Assembly: GCA_019083985.1 (NCBI GenBank)
Contig: JAHRCV010000005.1
Span: forward strand, 1-64,000
Direction: 5' to 3'
DNA: 64,000 bases
DNA from: Rhizobiales bacterium TNE-4
GTDB taxonomy: Bacteria; Pseudomonadota; Alphaproteobacteria; Rhizobiales; Beijerinckiaceae
In this document: piece after piece, positions 39,359 to 56,100 of the stretch
Layout: the number at the start of each line of letters is the position of its first letter
Numbering within the stretch: the stretch's first letter is position 1
Notes under the pieces: generated by a model
The model's database searches: none
What the model saw: only the letters and a program-made list of their open reading frames with translations
Told to the model about the DNA's origin: nothing
Position numbers and translations under genes: made by a program

Positions 39359-39592
39359 TTACTCTTTTAGCCTCACACCTGGCTTTTCATCGGGCGTTCC
39401 AATGAACTCGACACCGGCCTCTTCGAAGGTGCGTTTTAGATCGGCCAATGTCCGAGGATGTGCCGCAGGCACACCATCTTGCCGCTCAAACCGCTGAATG
39501 GTCGCCAAACTCACTCCTGAAGCTTCAGCAAGCTCACGAGCGGACCAAGATAACAAACCGCGAGCAGCACGGATTTGTGCAGAAGAAAGCAT
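39359..39592 (-). CDS. XRE-family helix-turn-helix regulator, 77 aa
   Basis: Cro/CI-type DNA-binding protein consisting of little more than the HTH: IRAARGLLSWSARELAEASG then VSLATIQRFERQDG with the recognition helix, followed by a C-terminal strand (GVEFIGTPDEKPGVRL). It is divergent from the 448-aa gene, and a strong inverted repeat covers both promoters (39601-39642), so it probably represses itself and the recombination module, like a phage immunity repressor. Confidence 0.85.
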   Translation of the reverse strand: MLSSAQIRAARGLLSWSARELAEASGVSLATIQRFERQDGVPAAHPRTLADLKRTFEEAGVEFIGTPDEKPGVRLKE

Positions 39593-39655: not shown

Positions 39656-41002
39656 ATGAAGCTCACCTACTGGCACTCCGCCCTTCAAGGCAAATCTTTT
39701 CCTATCCACGAAAATGATCCTCAGGAGGGATGGTACCGGACGCGACCGAGGAAGGGGTACCGGAGTTTGCCGGTTCGGATCTGGCGGGATGAGGGGTCGG
39801 GAGCGCTTTTGGCTCTGAGGGATGGCAAGCGGGTCGATCCTTATGAGGTCTGGACGTGGGTGTGTCTGAACCCTGTGTCGGTGGAGGCCTATGAGGCGGT
39901 CTTGGTGCAAGGGGCGCAGTGGCCTGACGAGATTGGGTTAGTTGGGCAGGGTTTGGGTGACGGCGGTTCACGCCAGTCTCATGCAGAGCACAGGAAGCTT
40001 CGGTCCGATGGCGCAAGGCCTGTCAAACTGACAGCGAAGGTCACTGAACCGACTGCCACATCAGACATGCGGACTGCCAATGTGTCATCAGCGCGATCCG
40101 TGCGGAGCCACTCTTCGAACGCTACTCATGCGGCTGTCAATTTGTCATACGCTGCCGCAGTGGTGAACAGTCATTCTGACAGCAAGGTTCAATCAACCGT
40201 CAATATGACAGCCGGTCATCTTACTAAGAACCGTCAATCTGACAGTTGGGCGCAGAGCGCTGACAACGTGACAACCAATGCACGATCAGTTGACAGGCAG
40301 GTTCTCGCATTGAGCAATCACTCCGAGACAATCCCTTTGTCGGATCATGGACGGTTGGGACATAACAGCCAAACACATGTCACGGATTGCAATGAGCTTG
40401 AGAGCGAGGACATTGCCGTCACACTCAAGCAGGACTTGTCGGCGCTGAAGTCCGATGTCTTGGCCTGGCTTTCTGAAGTGGGCGAAATTGTTGATCAAGT
40501 CACAGCCGATCGCTGCGCCAATTATGCGGAAGCCTTCTCTGATCTCGAGAAGAAGGCCGAAGGGTTCAGAACAGCTGAGAAGAAGCCCATCTTGGAACGA
40601 GGCCGGGCCATTGATCAGCGATGGAAGCCGATTGTGTCTCAAGCCGATGAAGCCAAGCGCCTCTGCAAGAAAGCCCTTGAGCCCTTCCTCATTTCTGAGA
40701 CCGAGCGTTTGGAAAAGGAGTTGATAGAACAGCTTCAGGCGGAGAATGGCGATCTCTCGGTTCTGAGCTCACTCTCGATACCCGCTAAAGCCGGTACCTT
40801 TGGTCGGACGATCTCGCTGAGGCGGGTGCGTAAGATTGTGGTGTCTGATCGCACGGCTCTTATCACCCACTACCATCGCGATCCGCGCTTCTTGAATGAT
40901 GAGGCTGTCCAGAAGCTTTTGGCCAAATTGGCAGAGCATGATCTGCAAGCAGGTCTATCTGTGCCCGGTGCGGACAGTGTCGAGGAGAAGGTCGCGGCCT
41001 AA
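39656..41002 (+). CDS. Unknown phage-like protein, 448 aa, with embedded dyad array
   Basis: Not a family I can name. N-terminal domain about 1-100: MKLTYWHSALQGKSFPIHEN, GWYRTRPRKGYRSLPVRIWR, then VWTWVCLNPVSVEAYE. Residues about 120-210 are a polar Ser/Thr/Asn linker, the part encoded by the seven-dyad array. The C-terminal 170 residues are mostly helical and charged, with a probable coiled coil (EKKAEGFRTAEKKPILERGR, DEAKRLCKKALEPFLISETE), and end with a basic strand region. Start at ATG 39656 lies within the controlled promoter's transcript; the frame upstream to 39575 overlaps the operator. Position directly before a RecT gene suggests a partner in phage-type recombination or replication. 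Confidence 0.7.
   Translation: MKLTYWHSALQGKSFPIHENDPQEGWYRTRPRKGYRSLPVRIWRDEGSGALLALRDGKRVDPYEVWTWVCLNPVSVEAYEAVLVQGAQWPDEIGLVGQGLGDGGSRQSHAEHRKLRSDGARPVKLTAKVTEPTATSDMRTANVSSARSVRSHSSNATHAAVNLSYAAAVVNSHSDSKVQSTVNMTAGHLTKNRQSDSWAQSADNVTTNARSVDRQVLALSNHSETIPLSDHGRLGHNSQTHVTDCNELESEDIAVTLKQDLSALKSDVLAWLSEVGEIVDQVTADRCANYAEAFSDLEKKAEGFRTAEKKPILERGRAIDQRWKPIVSQADEAKRLCKKALEPFLISETERLEKELIEQLQAENGDLSVLSSLSIPAKAGTFGRTISLRRVRKIVVSDRTALITHYHRDPRFLNDEAVQKLLAKLAEHDLQAGLSVPGADSVEEKVAA
40021..40273 (+). repeat. Seven 13-bp dyads (iteron-like array) inside a gene
   Basis: Sites start at 40021, 40075, 40135, 40169, 40198, 40232 and 40261, each 13 bases. In order they read TGTCA-AAC-TGACA, TGCCA-ATG-TGTCA, TGTCA-ATT-TGTCA, AGTCA-TTC-TGACA, CGTCA-ATA-TGACA, CGTCA-ATC-TGACA and TGACA-ACG-TGACA. 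Spacings are 54, 60, 34, 29, 34 and 29 bases; the last pairs sum to 63, about six helical turns. Five sites fall in one codon phase and two in another. A further TGACA half-site is at 40291-40295. A protein-binding array, such as a replication origin or partition-type site, is inferred. Confidence 0.65.
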
Positions 41003-41313
41003 AGATCCAATCGGCGCGCTGGTTTGGCGGTTCCTCGAAGCCCTTTGGTACGGCCCTTCCGTTCAGCGCTGAGGTTTTGAGGATCTGATTAGACCCTCAA
41101 AGCGCCTTCGGACGGCACGAGCGTTCTCTGAGAGCGTTCTCTACGTTCATAGCCTTCCCTGGATTGGTCCTTTGATGACCAAAACAGGTCAGCATTCAAA
41201 ATAATCACACGGTCAATACCGACCAGTTTGGCGCGCCAAAAGGCTTTGGCGTTAACGGCAGAGCTTTTTCTGGTCAGACAACACGAGAGCAAGTGAGAGG
41301 CAGAGAAACAATC
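41003..41313. other. Intergenic region with 14-bp perfect palindrome
   Basis: No gene in about 310 bases. TTTGGCGCGCCAAA at 41227-41240 is a perfect palindrome, placed 74 bases before the recT-like start, and looks like a dimeric regulator's site. The region presumably contains a second promoter for recT and the HNH gene. Confidence 0.5.
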
Positions 41314-43035
41314 ATGGCTTTGAGCAAAAAGAACACCCACACACATCCATCGACGTCCTGGGAGTATGACAATGATGTACGGGCAGGATCAGGCCCGTTT
41401 GGATTGCCTGATGGTCGTAGAGCCTCAAACACATCAGCTTCTCACCATGGTTTTGATGAGGAGGTATCTGCGTTCCAGAGACCTGCACGTCCCCGCCGGC
41501 GTGATCTGATGGCGGGATCACGCCCACGGCCCATCGTTCCTAAATCCCTCTCAGAAGCCTATCGGATCGCCCAAGCTGTTTGTGCCGCCAAGATGGCGCC
41601 TAAAGGGCTTGATACGCCTGAGGCCTGCATGATCGCGATCATGCATGGATTGGAAGTGGGTCTCTCTCCCCTCTCAGCTCTTCAGCGCATTGCCGTCATC
41701 AATGGACGGCCCACCATCTGGGGTGATGGAGCACTCGCTCTCGTCAAAGCCTCGGGCCTGTGTGAAGCCATTGAGGAATGGATTGAGGGGGATGATCCTC
41801 AATCATGGATCGCGATCTGTAATCTCATCCGCAAACATGACCCGGTCCCGGTCGAACGCCGCTTCTCAACAGAGGACGCCAAGCGCGCCAAGCTCTGGGG
41901 CAAATCAGGCCCCTGGTCAGACTACCCCAAGCGCATACTGCAAATGCGGGCCCGTGCCTTCGCCCTCAGAGACGCCTTCCCCGATGTTCTTGGAGGTCTC
42001 TATCTCACCGAAGAGTTTGTGGCGGAGCCTGAGGCAGAAGCCCAATCGGTAATGCGTTTCGAAACTGAAGAGCCATTGGAAGCAGGCGCCAGTCTTAGGC
42101 CTCAGACACACCCAGAACCTGAGACAAGGGCAAAGTCTGAAGTGAGGTCGGAGACCGAAGCACATCCTCAGCCACGGTTTAAACCTGAGATGCAGGGTGA
42201 AGCTGGATCAGGATTTGAGTTTTGGAACGGCGCGAGGTCGGTAGCGAGCTTGAGACCTGATAAAGCAGCGGAACCGCAAGCAAATGCGCTGCCGACCAAC
42301 AGCGACAATACCGATGTTGGTCATGCAACCGCTCCAGATACTGCGTCCGAAAGGTTTGAACGCGCGCAATCGAATGACGCCTCAATCAACGCCAGTGGCG
42401 ATTGGAAGACCGAAGAAGGCGACGGGCAGGCCAACGCCGCGTCAGTGTTGGTACCCACAATCTCTTCACCACTTCCGCCACTCGCTAATCTCCGACGGTC
42501 GCGATCCATGCCGCGCCACATCAGAGCCCTGCGGTTCCGCAATCAATGGTCGGTCAAACAACCCCGAGGGCCGCGTAAAGAGCTGAGCCAAACCAACGCT
42601 GTCTCATCGGATCAGGGACAATCATCATCTCCTCAAAGGCAATCACCGTCATCGTCGTTCGAAGGGCCGTCGTCATTCTATGCCAAAGCGCCTTCATCGC
42701 CAGAACAGGCATACTCAAGTGATCGAGTGGCATCACGACGGACGAGCTCTTTGGAGATCCAAAGGCAGTCCGTTCCAGAGCCAAGCTTAACTCTCTCAAT
42801 GACAACACAAGGCCAAGGCTTCATCCCGCCTGATGACATTACCGCTCACCTCGATCTCTATGACGCAGCCCTGTGCTGCGCCACGGATCCAGAAACCCTC
42901 GCTGAGATTGCCGAAGAGTTCACTGAGCGTCTTTCACAGCTTCCACGATCAAGCAGGAATGCCGCTGAACTGATCTTCGAAAAGCATCAAACGCGGATTG
43001 GCGATACTCCAACCCATGGAGACCGTCATGACTAA
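41314..43035 (+). CDS. RecT-family annealing protein with long C-terminal tail, 573 aa
   Basis: Residues about 75-240 match phage RecT-type single-strand annealing proteins: SLSEAYRIAQAVCAAKMAPK, EACMIAIMHGLEVGLSPLSA, LQRIAVINGRPTIWGDGALA, FSTEDAKRAKLWGKSGPW and ILQMRARAFALRDAFPDVLG. The following 330 residues are low-complexity and polar (repeated ETE/PE/Q-rich and Ser/Arg-rich stretches), ending in a small conserved-looking helix pair (DDITAHLDLYDAALCCATDPETLAEIAEEF). RecT proteins are usually 250-350 aa, so the tail is exceptional. ATG 41314 (MALSKKN) is preferred over GTG 41293. The HNH gene overlaps its end by 8 bases. Confidence 0.78.
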   Translation: MALSKKNTHTHPSTSWEYDNDVRAGSGPFGLPDGRRASNTSASHHGFDEEVSAFQRPARPRRRDLMAGSRPRPIVPKSLSEAYRIAQAVCAAKMAPKGLDTPEACMIAIMHGLEVGLSPLSALQRIAVINGRPTIWGDGALALVKASGLCEAIEEWIEGDDPQSWIAICNLIRKHDPVPVERRFSTEDAKRAKLWGKSGPWSDYPKRILQMRARAFALRDAFPDVLGGLYLTEEFVAEPEAEAQSVMRFETEEPLEAGASLRPQTHPEPETRAKSEVRSETEAHPQPRFKPEMQGEAGSGFEFWNGARSVASLRPDKAAEPQANALPTNSDNTDVGHATAPDTASERFERAQSNDASINASGDWKTEEGDGQANAASVLVPTISSPLPPLANLRRSRSMPRHIRALRFRNQWSVKQPRGPRKELSQTNAVSSDQGQSSSPQRQSPSSSFEGPSSFYAKAPSSPEQAYSSDRVASRRTSSLEIQRQSVPEPSLTLSMTTQGQGFIPPDDITAHLDLYDAALCCATDPETLAEIAEEFTERLSQLPRSSRNAAELIFEKHQTRIGDTPTHGDRHD

Positions 43036-43369
43036 GCGCAGGACATTTTCTTCAAAAGAGCGCCTTGCATACTTCCTGCAAGCCAAGGGTCATTGCGCGC
43101 AATGCTCGCTCAAAATCACCCCAGGAAAGCGATGGGATCTCGACCATGTCATCCCGCTATCCCTTGGCGGCTCCAATGACATCACCAATCTCCAGGTCCT
43201 CTGCCAAGCCTGCCATACACAAAAGACAAAATCTGATGTCTCATCAAATGCCAAAGCACGGCGTATTCAGTTGAGACACCTTGGAGCCACGCGAAGTAAG
43301 CGGCCGCTGCCTTGTGGACGGAAGTCGCCTTTTAAAAGGACCATTGAAGGAATGGTCGTTAGGCGTTGA
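43028..43369 (+). CDS. HNH endonuclease, 113 aa
   Basis: Compact HNH nuclease: CAQCSLKI zinc-type knuckle, WDLDHVIPLSLGGSND with the catalytic DH pair, NLQVLCQACHTQKT with the second knuckle and terminal His/Asn elements. ATG 43028-43030 is preceded by GGAG at 6-base spacing and overlaps the end of the recT-like gene; frame extension to 42998 is not needed. Small HNH proteins beside annealing proteins are typical of phage recombination modules. Confidence 0.88.
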   Translation: MTKRRTFSSKERLAYFLQAKGHCAQCSLKITPGKRWDLDHVIPLSLGGSNDITNLQVLCQACHTQKTKSDVSSNAKARRIQLRHLGATRSKRPLPCGRKSPFKRTIEGMVVRR

Positions 43370-44198: not shown

Positions 44199-47100
44199 TT
44201 ACCAGCCCATCTGGAGACCTGCGGTCCCAGCGAGCGATGTACCACGCGGACCAAAAATGCCGTCAAAACTTCCGAAGAGCCGTAAAAGCTCGGTAATTTT
44301 CAATTGCGCGCCCGAGCGCACAACCAACGCATCACGTTGTTGGGAGGCGCCAAGCACAGTGAATGAATAGCCTGGCGCAGCGACAAAGCCGACGTTTATT
44401 GCACGGGAAGGCGTGAAATCATGCATCCAAGCGAGGCGCACGTAAGGCACCATGACGGAGCCGTCTTTCATCGCGAATTCCGTCTCGAATTGCGCGCCTA
44501 AGAATACGGGAAGCGACGACGCCGAGACAAGATCGAAGTTCAGCGCCGCTGCACCAGGCGCGCCCAAACCTGTTGTGCTGCGCTCACTCTCACGCAATTG
44601 CCAATAGGTCGAGGGCTGGAATGCTGCAAAGGGAACGACGGACATCCATCCAACTCTAATCCGATAACCCATTTCGACATGCGCACCTAAAAGCGCTCCA
44701 TTGAAGCGACCCTTGGCAAATTCCGTGTCGGCCATTACGCCAGAAATCACACGTTGTGTATCCGATTTCTGGATGCCCCCAAACAATGTGCCGGTAGCAT
44801 AGAAATCATCACGCTGCTTCATCGCATAAATTCCAGCAAAGCCGGAATTGACAGTGCCGGTCGTCGCGCGTTGCGGAACGGAGAAGCGGTTCGACGATCC
44901 GCTGACTGCAACACCAAACAAGAGTTCACGATTTTCTTGGATGTCGAGGCCCGCCGAGAGGCCATAACCGCGTTGCGAGAATGTAGCAGATCCAACAGAA
45001 TTATTGCCACCCTGCGTGCCGTAACCCGATGCAGGCGTGGCCCACAACCGCCAGGTACGATCGCCATAGAATGTCGAACGTGTCAGGTCATCGCCGCCCC
45101 CATCGCGGACGAATTTATCCGTGATGCCATTCACATCGATGCCGCTATTCTGGCGCCACAGATTGGCCTGATCGAGTATGGAGACGGCGAACAATCCACC
45201 GGCGGTCAGCGCCACAGTTTGCGTAGAGGCAACACCTTCACCCGAGAGCGTCGATAGCGCACTGCCATAGGCAGCCAAAGTCGGCTGGGCATAAAGTCCA
45301 CTCGATACGGGCGCAAATGCATTTGTTGATCCCGCCGATTGAAGCGAGTTGACCATGGTGGCGACTTGCGTCTGATTCCAGTTCAGACCAGCTGGCACCC
45401 AATTCACGGTTGTTGCGAGATAGAGATTGTAACCATCCGGATCAATCACGGAATAAGATGCGACAGCGGAGGGTGCATAGGCTAGGGCCGGGCGCGTGTT
45501 GGGATCGAGGCCCTGCCCCGTTGCAACAATCAAATTAGTCCACGAACCACTTTTGGCATAATTGGCTTGAATGACACCAATTTGTAGGGTGCCTCCCACA
45601 CTCCCCGTGCCTGAAACGGTGACAGAGTCCGTGGCGCGGAGTTTTTGATCGAGTGTAATATCCATCGTGCCAGCGCCACTCTGCACGAACGATCCTTCAA
45701 GGCGGGCAGCCATCAGGCTGACAGCGCCACCAGGTGCAAAGAGCCCTTGATTGTTCAACAGCCCCGCGCCGCCGAGATCGGTCATAGGACCAGCATAATA
45801 GCTAGCACCAACTTCGTTGTTGAAGGTGCTTGTTCCCGTACCGAGCAAGACATTCCCAATGATCATGCCATTGTTGGTAATGGTTTCGTTGCCAGTCGTA
45901 CCAGTGATGGCTGTTCCTGCGAGACCATCAGTCGAGGAGATCGTCCCATTATTGATGAGCGCATTGGTAGATCCTGCGCGGAAGGCGACGGCGCCCACAT
46001 TGAGTCCACCGATGAGAACAGAGGATGCGCCTGTCGTGATGGTGATCGATCCATTGCTGGTCGCCCCTTCCGACTGCGCGAGAATGGCCGAAGCATTGTT
46101 ACCAAACGCAGCCACTGTGCCATTGACCAAGATCGAAACATTGCCCGCAATGCCGGTTCCATTTGCGACAACCGGCGTTGCCAAGCCATTCACGCTCGCC
46201 AAACCGCCGCCGCCACCAATCGATTGTGCAACGATGGCATGCGCGTTTGCTCCGGTCGTTATCACCGAACCATCAACACGCACCGAGACCGCGCCGCCAT
46301 CGCCAGTGCCACCGAGTGTCGTGCCAAGCGAGCCGCTGGTGGTATTGGCGGCCAACACCGCGCCGCCGCCACCGCCAATCGATTGTGCGAGAATGCCGAA
46401 AGCTGAAATGCCGCTGGTTTGGATGGTGCCCGTTTTCGTCACACTAACAGTGCCGCCATCCCCGACATCGCTGGATCCTGTCCCGAATTGCGCGGCGCCC
46501 GATCCAATGGCTAAACCGCCACCGCCGCCAATACTCTGCGCAACCAGCCCGATTGCCGAGAAACCTGACGTCGTGACATTAGCTGCGCTTATCACGGAAA
46601 CAGCGCCGCCCGCGCCACCCGCAGATCCGCCGAGCGTGACGTCTCCTGCTTGGCCGCCCACGAACCCACCACCGCCACCGATCGATTGTGCGAACATGCC
46701 AAACGAGCCAGCGCCTGTCGTTGCAACACTTCCCGCTGATGTAATGCCAACGGCTCCGCCCGTCGACAAAAGTGCCGATGTAGCACCAAGCGTCACTTGA
46801 CCGCTCGAACTGAACGCGACCCCGCCGCCACCGCCCACGCTTTGAGCAAACACGCCGGACGCATTTGAACCCGTCGTGTTAATTGCGCCGAACGTCCGAA
46901 GGGTGACATCGCCACCTGTCGCTGTACCCAGAAGAGTGCCGCCTGCTTCAACATTGAGCGAGAGGCCGGGGACGAAACCACCGCCGCCACCCAATGATTG
47001 GGCGAACAAGCCGAATGCGTAATCGCCTTGCGTATGCAACGCGCCTACATTTTCGCTGTTGACCGTCCCACCATCGCTGATGGCCCAATTACTTGCGCCA

Positions 47101-50100
47101 AAGAATGTATTGCCGCCTGTGGTGCCTGCAACGCCACCGCCGCCACCAACCGATTGGCTGAACATCGCACTCGCGCCAAATCCACTCGTTGAGAGCGTTG
47201 CCGTGTTCACTGCTGTTACGGAGTTGCCAATGCTCGTGCCAACGCCCGATCCGCCCAAAGTGATGTCGGCTGGCGGATCGGCTGCGAAACCACCGCCGCC
47301 GCCGACCGATTGTGCAAACAGTGCAAATGAATCCGCACCCAAGGTTAGCACCGGCGCAGTATTGCCCACGACAATGTCACCCCCCGATGCATCGCCGGAA
47401 CTTGCACCGCCGAAAATAATTGACGACAGCGCTGTTCCTGCAGAACCGCCGCCGCCACCGACAGATTGCGCAAAAATGCCGCTGGACGTTGCGCCCTCCG
47501 TCAAAAGCGCATCAGAGTTGGTTACAACCACGGAGCCGCCGCGATTTTCGCCAAACCAATTACCACCGAATGACAGACTACCGCCGACATTGCCCACGCG
47601 ACCGCCACCGCCACCGATGCTTTGAATAAAGATAGCAGTTGATCCGACGCCAGAAGTCATAATCGGTGCAGCGTTGGCATAGCGAAGATTACCGCCGCTA
47701 AGCGCCGATGGCGTTGATGTCGGGCTGGGACCGGTCGTCATAGCGCCCATCGTCACATCGCCGGAAACATTGCCAACATGGCCGCCGCCGCCGCCCACAC
47801 TTTGGTGCATGATTGCGCCGGAATTCGCACCATAAGTGCGGATGGAACCGCGATTGATGATGTCTGTCGTTCCACCTGAACCTGACGGCGCTGTGGCGAG
47901 AAATGTGCCGCCAAGAACCACATTGCCGAAGCCGCTGCCTGCAATGCCGCCGCCGCCACCGATCGATTGCATCACATAAGCGGGCGAATCCGCGCCATAC
48001 GTAACGATCGTTCCATCATTGACGATAAGGACATTGCCTGAACTGCCGCCAGCGCCACCCGATGCACCAAACGATGCATCGCCCGAACCGCTCCCGCCGC
48101 GTCCGCCGCCGCCACCAACCGATTGCGCGAAGATGCCAATCGAGTTGCGCCCAACCGTTTCAATACGCCCGGTATTGACGATGTTCACATCAACGGCATT
48201 GCCACCTGTGCCACCGGTGCCGCCGAGCGCCATGGCGCCCACCACATCGCCGCCAGAACCACCACCGCCGCCGACTGATTGCGCAAAGATACCGTCAGAC
48301 AAAGCACCCGATGAATAAATGACGCCGAAGTTTCGGACAGTGACAGCATCGGCATTGCCACCTGATCCACCTTGTCCGCCGAGCGCTAAACTTGCGGAGG
48401 AAACGCCGCCAAAACCACCGCCGCCGCCGACCGATTGTGCGTATATCCCAACCGACGAGAGACCTGATGTGACAATCACACCCGCATTGCGCACGGTGAC
48501 AGCAAGACCATTGCCGCCGCTCCCGCCAGAACCGCCGAGGCTGGCTGCAATTGTTCCGCTCGCAATCTCATCCGCGGCCACGATAGCACCTGCACCGCCG
48601 CCACCGCCCACCGACTGCGCAAAAATTCCAATCGCGTTACGGCCAACAGTCGCGATTATACCTGCATTCGTCACATCGACGATAGCACCATTACCGCCTG
48701 TTCCGCCTGCGCCTCCTAATGTGAATTGTCCACTTTGCGACGAGGTTCCTAAACTGCCTGTCGCAATGCCGGCAAAGCCGCCACCGCCGCCGACGGCCTG
48801 CGCGAGAATGCCGATAGCATTATGACCTCTGGTGGACATAACGCCGGCATTGGTGACAGTGACCTTATCGGCGTTGCCGCCGGCGGCAGCCTGTGTGCCC
48901 AAATTGATTGTAAGGTTCGAACCCGCATTCACGCTGCTTTCAGCAACGGTTGCGCCAGAATAGCCGCCGCCACCTCCAACCGATTGAGCGACAATCCCCG
49001 TAGCGCCATGACCGATCGTGACCATCCTGCCGGTATTGTTGACATCGACTGTGCTCGCCGATCCGCCTGCACCACCTGAGGCGCCGAGTGCTGCACTGAT
49101 CGTCGCTGTTCCCGTTGCCGTTGATTGCGAAACAACTGCACCTGAAACACCGCCGCCGCCGCCCACCGATTGCGCCAAGATCCCGACGGCGTCCGTGCCG
49201 ATCTGTGTCATGTCGCCGGTATTCGTTACGCTGACTACACCGCCTGCACCACCGCTACCACCGGAGCCACCCAAGCCCGCCGTAATCGTGTAGGTCGCTG
49301 CGCCACTCGTCAGTGCAGAGGATGATCCGCCTTCACCGCCGCCGCCACCGACCGATTGCGCAAAAATCCCACGCGCACTGTCACCCGCCGTCGAAATCGT
49401 TCCGCGGTTGACAACGGCCACATCGCCGCCAGCACCGCCCGATGTGCCCGCACCACCGAGCGTGAACACGGCGGATGCATTTCCACTTGCGCCGACCGAG
49501 CCTTGGCTCACCCCGCCCGATCCGCCGCCGCCGCCGACCGATTGCGCAAAAATCCCCATCGCACGCGATCCAGTAGCCGAGAGATTTCCGCCTAAGCCAA
49601 CATTGACGCTGACAGCAGCGCCGTCGCCTGCAACGCCACCCGTACCACCGAGAGATAGGCTGAAGACCTGTTGTGCAGACGCGACATGCGTATTCGACGC
49701 GCCACCATTGCCACCACCACCACCGATGGATTGCGCAAGAATCGCCGTGGCACCTGCGCCGATACTGGTGACATCTCCCGTCACACGCACTTGGACCTGA
49801 CCCGCATTCTGGCCCGTACCGCCAGAACCACCCAATCCCATCGCAAATTGATAGTCTGCGCCTGTTGCTGTGCCACTTGTTGTAGCGCCGCCATTGCCGC
49901 CACCACCGCCAACCGATTGTGCAAAAATCCCGGTCGAGAGTGCGCCACGCGTGGTCATCGCACCGGCAAAATCTACCTCAACCTCACCGCCGGTCCCACC
50001 AGCGCCCGCCGAACCGCCAAGCGAGAACGCGCCGGCATAGGCACCAGTACCAGCGCTACTTGTCGTCGCGCCGCCATTGCCACCACCGCCGCCGATCGAT

Positions 50101-53100
50101 TGGGCCAGAATGCCCATCGATTGGGCGCCATTCGTCGTGATGGTGCCAATACTTGTTACGCCGACGCGTTCGCCATCGCCGCCAGCTGCGCCTGCACCAC
50201 CCAACGCCGCTGCAAATGCGACCCCGTTTTGTCCGGACGCACCAGCTGATCCTGATGCGGCATTGGCTGTCGGTGTACCAGAGCCCGTCCCGGTTGCCTC
50301 CGTCGCCGTGCTCGCCCCACCATTGCCGCCGCCGCCGCCAATCGATTGCGCCATGATCGCGGTCGAGTGAGCGCCAATTGTAGCAATCGTGCCCCCGGTA
50401 TAAACTTCAACAACGTCGCCACTCCCGCCGCTTAAACCCGAACCACCGAGCGTAAAGGCAAATGACGCAGATTGCGCTTGGCTCGAACTTGAGAGGGACG
50501 ACCCGCCATTGCCGCCACCGCCACCGATCGATTGTGCCAGAATTCCGTAGGAATGTGCGCCCCGTGCATCGATCGTGGAGTTGCGTGCGGCAAGTGAGTA
50601 ATTCGCTGTAACGGTTACCGACGCACCGTCGCCGCCCGCGGCACCAAAGCCACCAAGCGAAAATGCCGTGGAGATTTTCGATGCGTCGCTATTGACCGAT
50701 GATGCGCCACCATTGCCGCCACCACCGCCAACTGATTGCGCAAAAATGCCGGCCGATGAAGCGGACGGATCAGACGATACTTGCAAATTGCCAGCAGCAT
50801 CGACTTTACGGCCAACATAGATTGAGCCTGTTTGGGTGACAGTGACGACATTACCAGACGTGCCTGCACCGCCTTCGCCACCCAACGACAAACCGATCGA
50901 TGCCCCACTATCGCCAGCGGCCTGCGTCCCCGATGATGTACCGCCCGCTTGCCCCGCACCGGCGCTACTGCCGCTGCTAACATTGGTGCCACTTGTGAAA
51001 GTGCCAGCGTATGCACTCGACTGCGAATTCGTCGATGTTGATGCTGCCACTGTCGCCGATGAAACCGAAGCGCCACCATTGCCGCCGCCACCGCCCACCG
51101 ATTGCGCAAAGATACCGGAGGATTGCGCACCATCGGTCACGATGGTGCCCGTGTTGGTCACAGTCACCGTTCCTGTTTGGCCTGCGCTTGCTCCTGAACC
51201 GCCAAGGCCGAACGCAAGAGCGATAGTTCCACCGCTTGTTGCGTTGCTCGCAGATGAGCCGCCATTGCCACCGCCGCCCGAAACCGATTGCGCGAAAATG
51301 CCCGCCGACTGCGCCCCATCTGTGATGATCGCTGCGCCCGTGCCCGTGACTGTCACCGCTTCGGCTGATCCGCCCGTGCCGCCGCTGCCGCCAAGACTGA
51401 AGGAGCCGCCAAACTTCGATGCATCACCATTGCTCTGGCTTGCACCCCCATTGCCGCCGCCGCCACCAATCGATTGTGCAAAAATGCCCGCTGCCTGGTC
51501 GCCGCGTGTCCGAATGGAAGCGCTGCTTGTGATTTGGACCGTTCCGGCATCGCCGCCTTGACCACCCGCACCGCCGATGGAGAACCCAGCAGCAAGGCCG
51601 CTATCAGTCGCCCCTGACGATGATGTTGCGGAAGATGATGTTCCCGCACTCGTCGAATTAGTGCCTGTCGCTTGTCCAGCACCGGTTTGCGCCGTCATGC
51701 CTCCGGAGGACGAAGACGCCGTCGATGCTGTCGAAGCACTCGTCGATGCGCCACCATTGCCGCCACCACCGCCAACCGATTGCGCGAAAATTCCTGCCGA
51801 TTGCGCGCCATTTGTACTGATTAATCCGCCGGTATTCACAATGACGTTTTCACCATTGCCGCCGCCTGCCCCAAAACCACCCAAACCAAACGCCAATGAG
51901 AGTGAACCTGTGCTCGTGGCGCTGCTATTGGAGGAACCACCATTGCCGCCGCCGCCGCCAACCGATTGCGCGAAAATGCCGGGCGAGTTTCCGCCGATCG
52001 TACCGATCGTTGCCAGCGATGGGTGAGCCCCAACATTGGCGTTGACTGTAACTGTACCAGCGTGCGCACCACTCCCGCCAAAACCACCGAGTGAGAAAGC
52101 GCCCGATATCTTTGAAGAATCACTGTTCAGCGTTGACGCACCACCATTGCCGCCGCCGCCGCCAATCGACTGCGCGAAAATGGCAGCAGAATTGTCGGCA
52201 CCAGACGTCATCGTCGTCACGGTGCTACCACTGATGGTGTAACCCGCCAGGACGCTTCCATCTTGCGTCACGGAAACATTACCGGACGTGCCACCCGATG
52301 CAGCCATGCCGCCCATGCTAAAGCCAACAGCAATGCCGCTATCGGCCCCCGCTTGACTGGCGCCCGTCGATTGACCGCCGCTCGTTGTCGTTCCAGCCGC
52401 CGCACTATTGGATGAGGACGATGCAGTTGTTCCATCGACAGCGCCGGTTTGTGCGCCGCTGCGTGTCGAGCCCGTTGGCGCCGTTGCTGTCGACGCCGTC
52501 GAGGAAGCCCCGCCATTGCCCCCGCCGCCACCGACAGATTGCGCAAAGACACCATAGGCCTGCTGACCACCGGTCACGATCAGTCCGGTGCTCCCAACCG
52601 TCACTCCGCCTGCAATACCGCCGGTGCCGCCGAAACCGCCCATACCAAAACTAAGAGCGACTGGGCCACCTGATTGCGAATTGCTTGATGCCGTGCCGCC
52701 ATTGCCGCCACCGCCGCCAACCGACTGTGCAACGATGCCAGACGATTGATTGCCTTGCGTGGTGATTTGCGCATTGCTGGTGACGGTCACGAGAGCCGAT
52801 CCGCCGCCCGTTCCGCTCATGCCGCCAAGACTGAACGATCCACCAAACTTGGCACCATCGCCTTTCGATTGGCTCGATCCGCCAGTACCACCACCGCCGC
52901 CAATCGATTGCGCAACAATGCCCGACGATAGATCGCCGAGCGTTGAAATTTTTGCCGCTAAGGTTTGACCGACTTCGACGGTGACCGCAGCGCCCGTTCC
53001 ACCATCGGCACCGAAACCGCCAATGCTCAGCCCTGCTGCAATACCGCCAGACGATGACGCTGTACCAGAGGGCTTCGCTGTTGTGCCATCGCTTCCCGCC

Positions 53101-56100
53101 GATGATGCGCTGCTGGTCGAAGCTGTACCAGAGGTGCTGCCTGATCCCGATTTTGCGACTACACCGCCCGCTGATGATGACGCTGCCGATTGGGTGGCTG
53201 AACTTGATGATGCGCCCCCATTGCCACCGCCGCCGCCAATCGACTGTGCCAAGATACCTGCTGATTGCGCACCATTGGTTGCAATCCCACCACCGGCATA
53301 GACATCTACAGTGTTGCCATTGCCGCCACCTGCACCAAAACCGCCAAGACCAAAACCAAGCGAAAATGAGCCAGTGCCACTGCTGTTGCTGTTGGCATGG
53401 CCGCCATTGCCGCCACCACCGCCAATCGATTGCGCAACAATCCCGGCCGCTTGCGCACCTTGCGTTGTTATAGCTGTCGTCGTCGGCGAAGCATTTTCAT
53501 TCGCAGACACAACAACGGTTTGACCAACGCCACCGCCGCCGCCAAACCCACCGATGCTCAGTGAGGCCGACATTTTGCCCGACGCCACATTAGAGTCGGA
53601 ATTACCACCATTACCGCCGCCGCCGCCAAGCGATTGTGCAAAAATGCCGTAAGAAAGATCACCCAACGCTGCGATGGAGCCTGTCTGCGTCACTTGGACC
53701 GTGCTGCCATTTCCCGCGGCAGAGCCGCTGCCGCCCAACGTCAGAGCAAATGAATTTTGAGCTGAACTAGAAAAAATCTGCGGCGCGAAACTCCGCGCTT
53801 GACCACCATTGCCACCACCGCCGCCTACCGATTGAGCTAGAATGCCAGCAGAATTCACCTGCGCGGTTGAAATAGAACCGACATTTTGCACGGTGACAGT
53901 CGATGCTGACATGCCACCGCCGCCTGATCCGCCCAGCGTGATGCTACCGGACGATGTCTCGCTCGTGCCCAGTGTGCCCGACAATGCAAAGCCGCCATTG
54001 CCGCCATTGCCGCCAATCGATTGCGCAAGTATGCCGCCTGCATTCAGCCCCGCAGTCGCAATCGATCCGCTGGAGTTAACCGTCACCGCCCCTGTGGAGC
54101 CGCCGCCGCCACCACTCCCGCCGAGAGTGAGTGTGCCAGCCAGTTTGGAACTGGCCGCGCCAGCAGCGCTAAAACCACCATTACCGCCAGAACCGCCAAG
54201 CGATTGCGCAATAATGCCGGTTGAGCTGTCTCCCGATGTGGTGATCGAGCCATTGTTGAGAACACCAACAGGGCCTGCGCTGCCACCTGCGCCGCCTGTG
54301 CCGCCAATCGCGATTGTCGCAGCACCATCTTGCGCCGCGCTTCCGCCGACTGTGAAACCGCCATTGCCACCCGTGCCGCCGATGGCTTGCGCGAGAATAC
54401 CAACCGATTGTGTGCCTTGCGTCACAATTCCTGTCGAAGCGCCCAACGTACCAAATTGTGTACAAGCACTGGCGGATGCAACGCCATTCGCCACGCACAC
54501 ACCCAAGGCCGTACCGCCCGCACCACCGCCGCCACCGATGGTGACATTCGCTGCACCAGAATTGGCGAATGCGGCACCGACACTCATTCCGCCCTGTCCG
54601 CCCGAGCCACCAAGCGATTGCGCAATGATACCCGCCGATTGACGACCTTGCGTGGTCAGAACACCTTCGCTGGCAACCGTAACAAAACCACCGGTCTGGC
54701 CATTCCCTGCGCCACCCGCGACCGAAACATTGACGCCAGCATTGCCGCTCAGTGCGCCGCCGATGGCGTAGCCACCATTCCCGCCATTGCCTGAAATCGA
54801 CTGCGCCAAGACCGCAGCACCATTGTCGCCGCTTGTCGTGATGGCGCCATTGTTCAGAACGCCAACGGTTCCTGCCGTTCCACCATCTCCGCCGGCACCT
54901 GCAATTCCGACACTGGCAGCACCCGTGCTCGCAACAGATGCAGCAATCGTCATACCGCCATTGCCGCCACCGCCACCAAGCGATTGCGCGATGATGCCGG
55001 CCCCCGTGGTACTCAATTGCGCATTGCTGCGCGATGTGAGCGCAGTGCAATTGATGTCGGTCGTACCGCCATTGGCGACACAGACTTGACCCGCCGTTCC
55101 ACCATCGCCCGCAACGCCGCCAACAGTGACGGTTCCACCGGCCGTGTCGGACAGAGACCCGCCGATCGTGAAGCCGCCATTGCCGCCTGCGCCGCCCATC
55201 GATTGCGCGATGATACCGCTTGAACCTGAGCCGGTTGTTGTGATGTTGCCTGACGATTGAACGGCCACAAGACCCGATGTTGCGCCGCTGCCGCCGCCGC
55301 CGCCCACTTGGATCGCCGCCGATGCTGTAGAGCTGGCACCTAGACCCGCTGAGAACCCACCATTACCGCCATCGCCTGCAATCGATTGCGCGACAATGCC
55401 ACTCGATTGCGCGCCACTCGTTGTGAGATTGCTGGCGTTGGACAACGAGACGCCGAACGCTTGCCCGCCCGCCATGCCACCAGCACCGACGCCAATCGAT
55501 GCCGCCGCAGTGCCACCGATGGCGGCGGTTGCTGCAAATCCGCCATTGCCGCCATGCCCACCAATCGCTTGCGCCACAAGCGCACTGGATTGATCGCCAG
55601 CGGTGATGACACTGCCTGTGTTGTTGATGAGGCCTGTATAGCCCAAACCGAAAAGGCCTGTCACGAATGTTGCTGATCGTCCCGCCGTGCCGCCCGTTCC
55701 GCCTCGACCGCCAACGCCAATGCCGACTGCGCCCGTCAATCCAATAGTGCCGATGATGGCGAAACCGCCACTCCCACCCGAGCCGCCAATCGATTGCGCA
55801 AGAACACCATTTGCATTCGCGCCGTTGGTGGAAATCACAGCACTGTTGGTGACGGTTGCAGTTCCCGATGTACCACCCGATCCCGCCACGCCGCCTATTG
55901 CGAACCCAGCCGACACGTCACTCCCGCCGCCGGTGATCGCAAATGCGCCATTACCACCCGAGCCACCGATCGATTGTGCTGAAACGCCTTGAGCCGCATC
56001 ACCTATCGTGGTGATGGAACCGGCGGATGTGACGCTCGCCGTTCTCGACGAGCCACCATTCCCGCCTAATCCGCCCAGATTGCCTGACAAAGAAACAGCA

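Follow-up and report, generated by a model that had tools for sequence, protein, structure and literature searches.

What are regularly spaced inverted repeats doing inside the coding sequence of a chromosomal gene, and which protein would read them? This question is raised by gene X, which encodes a protein of 448 aa on the plus strand (39656–41002) of the window, the whole stretch of 64,000 nucleotides that was analysed. Within 253 bases of its coding sequence (40021–40273), gene X carries seven copies of a 13-bp dyad with the consensus TGTCA-N3-TGACA. The sites reported by the initial annotation are real, and their positions were confirmed together with the spacing of 34, 29, 34 and 29 bases between the last five.

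Gene X, its cassette and the dyad array

Gene X is part of a cassette with the order XRE (opposite strand), X, RecT-like gene, HNH. The XRE-type HTH gene (77 aa, 39359–39592, minus strand; Pfam HTH_3 1.9e-06) is divergent from X. Downstream of X, which is named here as the RecT-neighbour protein, and separated from it by a long intergenic stretch (41003–41313), follow the gene of a RecT-like ssDNA-annealing protein (573 aa, 41314–43035, plus strand) and an HNH endonuclease gene (113 aa, 43028–43369, plus strand). The RecT-like protein is matched by phrog_561 at 1e-30 and by Pfam RecT only at 0.024, and the HNH gene by Pfam HNH at 5.2e-13 in a scanned stretch that started one codon before the gene. 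Judged by eye, flagellar genes, recA and other chromosomal genes lie upstream of the cassette, and no phage structural genes were seen near it. Directly downstream, a minus-strand open frame of 4943 aa (44199–59030) is found; glycine-serine repeats are very abundant in it, and judged by eye it is autotransporter-like. Neither an integrase nor an initiator gene was recognised in the cassette. X and RecT are unmatched by the PADLOC defence models, and XRE and HNH match generic models only. Within the open-access literature on iterons, in-gene origins, origin decoys and RecT/HNH/XRE cassettes, no paper on the array or the cassette was found.

An AlphaFold2 model of X, calculated from a 9-sequence alignment (mean pLDDT 66.3), displays a folded alpha/beta N-terminal domain (residues 1–93), a linker (residues 94–245) with pLDDT values below 50, and a C-terminal part (residues 246–448) that is first helical and then alpha/beta. 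The array is predicted to lie wholly within this disordered linker. Residues 246–363 are matched by phrog_10477 (1.2e-11), whose family name 'exonuclease' should be applied to the C-terminal part of X with caution; all nine X proteins scanned match this family only, except that one also matches an unnamed family. A Foldseek search with the X structure retrieved nothing from PDB or BFVD within an E-value limit of 0.001. VIA-align, which barely covered the N-terminal domain, returned for residues 239–364 helical bundles only (best Z 10.7), of a type that its own note calls common. As modelled, the fold of X appears to point to no reader of the array.

The seven dyads, given as features without strand, are TGTCAAACTGACA (dyad 1, 40021–40033), TGCCAATGTGTCA (dyad 2, 40075–40087), TGTCAATTTGTCA (dyad 3, 40135–40147), AGTCATTCTGACA (dyad 4, 40169–40181), CGTCAATATGACA (dyad 5, 40198–40210), CGTCAATCTGACA (dyad 6, 40232–40244) and TGACAACGTGACA (dyad 7, 40261–40273). 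Dyad 1 matches the consensus exactly, five sites deviate by one mismatch, and dyad 2, the weakest of the seven, by two. A C is positioned directly 5' of the first base in every dyad, and the dyad centres are A/T-rich. From start to start, the gaps measure 54, 60, 34, 29, 34 and 29 bases. Dyads 4 and 6 are read in another codon phase than the remaining five, as the initial annotation had described, and the cause is simple: the dyads are limited to two phases because the third frame would put a TGA stop in frame. The use of two phases is in itself no sign of conservation; it shows that the reading frame is tolerated.

The last five dyads fall into units of 63 bp, a multiple of 3, the third of which contains one dyad only. 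Units 1 and 2 are identical at 21 of 26 positions inside the dyads and at 13 of 37 outside; the corresponding values are 15/26 and 13/37 for units 1 and 3, and 14/26 and 11/37 for units 2 and 3. Since the last five sites are arranged in such units, the sites of the array are not fully independent and a partial spread by duplication is possible, so that part of the array may have arisen in this way.

Excess over chance and copies of the cassette

In the window, 22 strand-wise matches to YGTCANNNTGACA with at most one mismatch were counted, compared with a mean of 6.44 and a maximum of 14 after shuffling. The whole genome (3,172,159 bp) holds 95 sites of TGTCANNNTGACA at the same tolerance, six of them in the 253 bp of the array. 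When the linker of X was recoded synonymously with the protein held fixed and codons redrawn from local usage (2000 trials), the mean was 0.38 sites and the maximum three, and none of the trials reached six. Codon shuffling of the linker (2000 trials) gave at most two. The long polar linker of RecT, which served as a control, is without an array, its best arm yielding one site.

Four X genes are present in the genome, termed copies A (C5:39656, in the window), B (C5:146530), C (C2:630498) and D (C7:15665). Copies A, B and C possess a long linker with an array, whereas copy D has a short linker and no array. Together, the three array-bearing genes account for 15 of the 95 genomic sites (six, five and four in A, B and C, respectively), and in the other cassette neighbourhoods only single sites and no further clusters were detected. 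In an unbiased scan that covered every one of the 1024 5-bp arms at a spacing of 3 bp, TGTCA ranks first in each of the three copies, with the same six, five and four sites against a maximum of three in 300 recodings per copy. Across these three related copies, with the sites chosen in copy A, four of 70 arm columns are variable, against 33 of 207 columns beyond the dyads (one-sided Fisher P 0.019); among the columns of the 3-bp centres it is four of 21. Steady arms around variable centres are the pattern that a dimer-binding site would show, here judged on three related copies. In conclusion, the array is real, and the constraint at the DNA level proposed by the initial annotation is supported by the recodings of the same protein, with their maximum of three sites.

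A relative of the XRE gene adjoins all four X copies, and the genome likewise contains four RecT genes. For three of the four copies the contig breaks off after X, before recT is reached, and three contigs start with a RecT gene; the contig ends concerned belong to C2, C3, C4, C5 and C7. Because the contigs break at this point, the X–recT joins of three cassettes are deduced. The breaks suggest that the first part of recT is near-identical in these copies. None of the four cassettes in this genome was seen to have an integrase or structural genes in its vicinity. Pairs of an antitoxin-like and a VapC-like gene (named by eye) are situated near the cassette of copy B (L020:7863-8497) and near that of a congeneric genome, G001 (L055:9037-9668).

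The comparison within the genus comprises two genomes, G001 and G002. In one G002 orthologue (L011) the linker protein has drifted almost past alignment, dyad 1 is kept as TGTCACACTGACA, and the best arm is now TGCCA-N3-TGGCA, with three sites against a null maximum of two (300 recodings). The expectation that the dyads would persist while the linker protein drifts is borne out in part in this orthologue, which retains dyad 1 and contains a further symmetric family whose arms have changed in concert. It fails elsewhere: four other X genes of the genus are without an array, namely copy D and three genes of the sister genomes (G001 L015, G001 L010 and G002 L018), and a dyad with at most one mismatch is found in none of ten relatives from other genera. 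In the latter, wherever the end marker GHN could be located, linkers are as short as 6–30 residues. The linker of G001 L010 contains a perfect 12-bp coding repeat (LNDN; L010:1960-2060), which marks the X linker as a region generally prone to repeat growth.

Among 397 Beijerinckiaceae genomes, the three-dyad pattern was encountered in one, the TNE-4 genome itself, at three places that are all X genes. The arrangement XRE-X-RecT-HNH is seen, whole or mostly, at other Beijerinckiaceae loci (by eye). Relatives of X also occur in phages, close to genes for ssDNA annealing in two cases: in Rhizobium phage RHph_TM3_3_3 RecT is located two genes on, and in Synechococcus phage Ssp-JY39 Bet is the next gene. 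With X alone as query IMG/VR returned no relative, with an alignment it returned four; three records from phages and one from plasmids were obtained, all of them distant.

The same dyad in viral genes

Iterons within a coding sequence are a known feature of initiator genes. In IMG/VR, 23 contigs contain a run of three exact TGTCA-N3-TGACA dyads, in 19 of them within an open reading frame of at least 100 aa, and 17 of these 19 frames match phrog_428, 'replication initiation protein'. Triples of the looser form GTCA-N3-TGAC occur in at least 120 contigs, compared with 19 for the scrambled palindrome CAGT-N3-ACTG used as a control. Among the matches listed for the looser form, 89 of 120 lie in a frame of at least 150 aa, of which 71 match phrog_428. 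After nine of the 89 loci had been left out as coding repeats or doubtful frames, all 284 in-frame dyads among the matches listed were in the two stop-free frames, as in X. The analogy to the lambda O origin drawn by the initial annotation is hence supported, the same dyad being the in-gene repeat of O-like phage initiator genes. Judged by its letters, the motif of the X array is that of lambda-O-like in-gene iterons. As a practical shortcut, a run of three TGTCA-N3-TGACA dyads confined to the two stop-free frames points to a phage initiator gene and hence to a likely origin.

The spacing, however, differs. Among the matches listed, the 204 in-frame viral gaps peak at 21–24 and 44–46 bases, 29 never occurs and 34 occurs once, in contrast to the 34/29 alternation in X. 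The only viral contigs found with the 29/34 spacing number four, none of them with the array in an initiator gene: two of these arrays are situated upstream of Arc-like genes and two upstream of a weakly DUF5681-like gene that precedes a terminase gene. In phages, Arc-like genes (L129, L190, L104, L191 and L142) carry arrays of GTCAC-N-GTGAC dyads in their promoters, which are likely of the operator type.

The linkers of viral initiators, for example QNDTMHDVKMT, resemble the VNMT and RQSD segments of X. The encoded linkers are alike because the dyad dictates the codons, and the likeness may be convergent. Beyond the dyads, the comparison of the X linker with initiator linkers gave nothing convincing (best blastn E 0.43; the best blastp value, 0.016 without composition correction, was reached with a frame of one viral contig). 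Triples with the TGCCA arm, the one favoured in the G002 orthologue, are present in 38 viral contigs, in 17 of them within a frame, and at most eight of these 17 match any one initiator family. Both arms, TGTCA and TGCCA, occur in phage initiator genes.

Candidate readers of the array

Lambdoid iterons are inverted repeats bound by dimers of O (PMC7466680). The reading that we tentatively favour, though at somewhat less than an even chance, is that the array is of the phage iteron type, as a relic, a decoy or a hijacked origin, and that an O-like initiator reads it in trans. The 13-bp dyads would be sites for a dimeric protein, placed in the disordered linker, where X tolerates them. A winged-helix initiator of the O-like kind would bind the array, supplied either by a phage ancestral to the XRE-X-RecT-HNH cassette or by a phage that infects the cell, and the array would then be what remains of a phage origin, a decoy diverting the initiator, or a site at which phage replication fires next to the RecT gene. 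The analysis shows the array and its excess over recoded sequence, its location in a linker, its occurrence in three of four copies and, with altered arms, in a sister species, and a motif identical to that of the initiator-gene arrays; that a protein binds the dyads, what kind of reader it is and whether the array has an effect are inferences.

Compared with lambda-type in-gene origins, X likewise contains several imperfect inverted repeats inside a gene, in a linker between folded domains, and with the O-like initiator genes it shares the dyad and the restriction to two stop-free frames. Unlike them, X is no initiator and is without a helicase-loader partner. X itself has no initiator match in Pfam or PHROGs, and as a candidate initiator it was rejected since it matches no winged-helix initiator family. 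The suggestion that X binds its own gene is accordingly not supported, X matching no initiator family and most of its relatives being without sites. Pfam and PHROGs disclose no initiator elsewhere in the cassette either. In the draft genome, which is 98.8% complete, PF13730 and phrog_391 have no match, and phrog_428 and phrog_270 give short matches only, of which those examined are GntR/UTRA or Crp-like winged-helix proteins.

An AT-rich element beside the iterons is a feature of lambda-O-type origins. In contrast, windows of 40 bp reach at most 62.5% AT in X and at most 60% within the array, and the GC content at the array is 0.50 (150-bp window). For the AT-rich arm of the lambda origin, PMC4488673 names r99 and ti12. 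Spacing and base composition, as read from the letters, would speak against a complete origin; the array falls outside the lambda-O-type origins, even if the individual sites are like theirs in type. The favoured reading is weakened further by the patchy distribution of the array, which is lacking in copy D, in three other X genes of the genus and in all ten relatives from outside, and by the viral arrays with the G002-type TGCCA arm, of which only 17 of 38 are in a frame and eight of these 17 match an initiator family.

Two known systems come close to the proposed trans-acting initiator. Extra copies of the lambda origin arrest lambda, and mutated copies that still bind O act alike, so that binding capacity sufficed and a complete origin was not needed (PMC4488673). 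The X array resembles these ectopic decoys in that initiator-binding-type sites reside in the cell away from the phage, but it exists in a few chromosomal copies, whereas those decoys were artificial and carried on plasmids at about 20–40 copies (PMC4488673). Similar to the phage satellite PLE (PMC7145576), the cassette is a chromosomal element that bears iterons and may be connected with the replication of phages; unlike PLE, which encodes a RepA initiator of its own and an integrase, it has neither in recognisable form. In the present case, an initiator-type array is found in a gene that is no initiator, within a chromosomal cassette that is present in several copies and free of structural phage genes, and in a genome in which no reader was found. 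If an initiator does read the array in trans, it would amount to an origin-like decoy, or a hijack site, that occurs in nature; for lambda, this has so far been shown with artificial plasmids (PMC4488673).

Possible, yet on the doubtful side, is an array for another dimeric protein, such as a ribbon-helix-helix or wHTH regulator or a nucleoid protein, which would serve as operator or structuring element and might control transcription through X into recT, for instance as a roadblock. This explanation accommodates the spacing: GTCA-N3-TGAC arrays are found in the promoters of phage Arc-like genes (PF03869 in all five such genes scanned), with gaps of 24–36 bases that include 29/33 and 29/34-like patterns, and it is at these promoters, not in initiator genes, that the 29/34 spacing of X recurs. 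The long intergenic stretch that follows X would also suit control of recT. However, the Arc family (PF03869) was not found in the genome, Arc-type sites have CNG centres in place of the A/T-rich ones of X, and the Arc-like operators occupy promoters beside the Arc gene, while the dyads of X lie deep within a gene and away from its promoter. Moreover, the XRE gene of the cassette has different palindromes at its own promoter.

Unlikely is the view that the array has no function, the dyad being the passenger of a hypervariable disordered linker grown by duplication of short units. The arrangement of the last five sites in units that are a multiple of 3, the plain 12-bp coding repeat in the same linker of the sister gene (G001, L010) and the several X genes without an array would all be in line with it. 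It leaves unexplained why the match between units 1 and 2 is closer within the dyads (21 of 26 positions) than beyond them (13 of 37), why the arms are less variable than the sequence around them (P 0.019), and why the arms of G002 changed in concert. In addition, the dyads of one unit are 34 bp apart and in different frames, which in-frame slippage does not yield.

Within the reading of an O-like initiator acting in trans, a bolder and quite improbable version would have the coding sequence of X act as the sensor or decoy of the cassette for initiators of infecting phages. The O-like initiator of an infecting phage would load onto the iterons in X and would either be drawn off the phage origin or start replication beside recT, and the resident cassette would be copied, recombined or spread at the cost of the phage. 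On this view, the symmetric shift from TGTCA to TGCCA arms in the sister species would mirror a change in the phages that it encountered.

Very improbable is a pac or cos-like site for DNA packaging, recognised by the small subunit of a terminase, for example a DUF5681 protein. Two viral contigs (L154 and L218) carry dyads at 28/34 spacing just upstream of the DUF5681-like gene, a terminase gene follows in L154, the contig whose terminase was scanned, and a DUF5681 gene is located upstream of X in copies C (L021:11492-12160) and D (L022:14071-14538); but the viral matches stay under the Pfam cut-off (20.3 vs 27.5 bits), copy D has the DUF5681 gene and yet no array, no such gene was seen beside copy A in the window, and structural genes were not seen near the cassette.

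Hardly credible, finally, is the XRE repressor of the cassette as the reader, which the initial annotation had named as a candidate and which is the sole DNA-binding regulator of the cassette, since the XRE/X intergenic regions contain other palindromes and no TGTCA dyad, the XRE proteins of copies A and C share 53% identity whereas the arrays of these two copies hardly differ, and the XRE protein of copy D is 71% identical to that of A although D has no array. Among these other palindromes is a perfect one of 26 bp, ATTAATGTTACATATGTAACATTAAT, in the intergenic region of copy C (L021:12447-12472), which is likely the operator of XRE.
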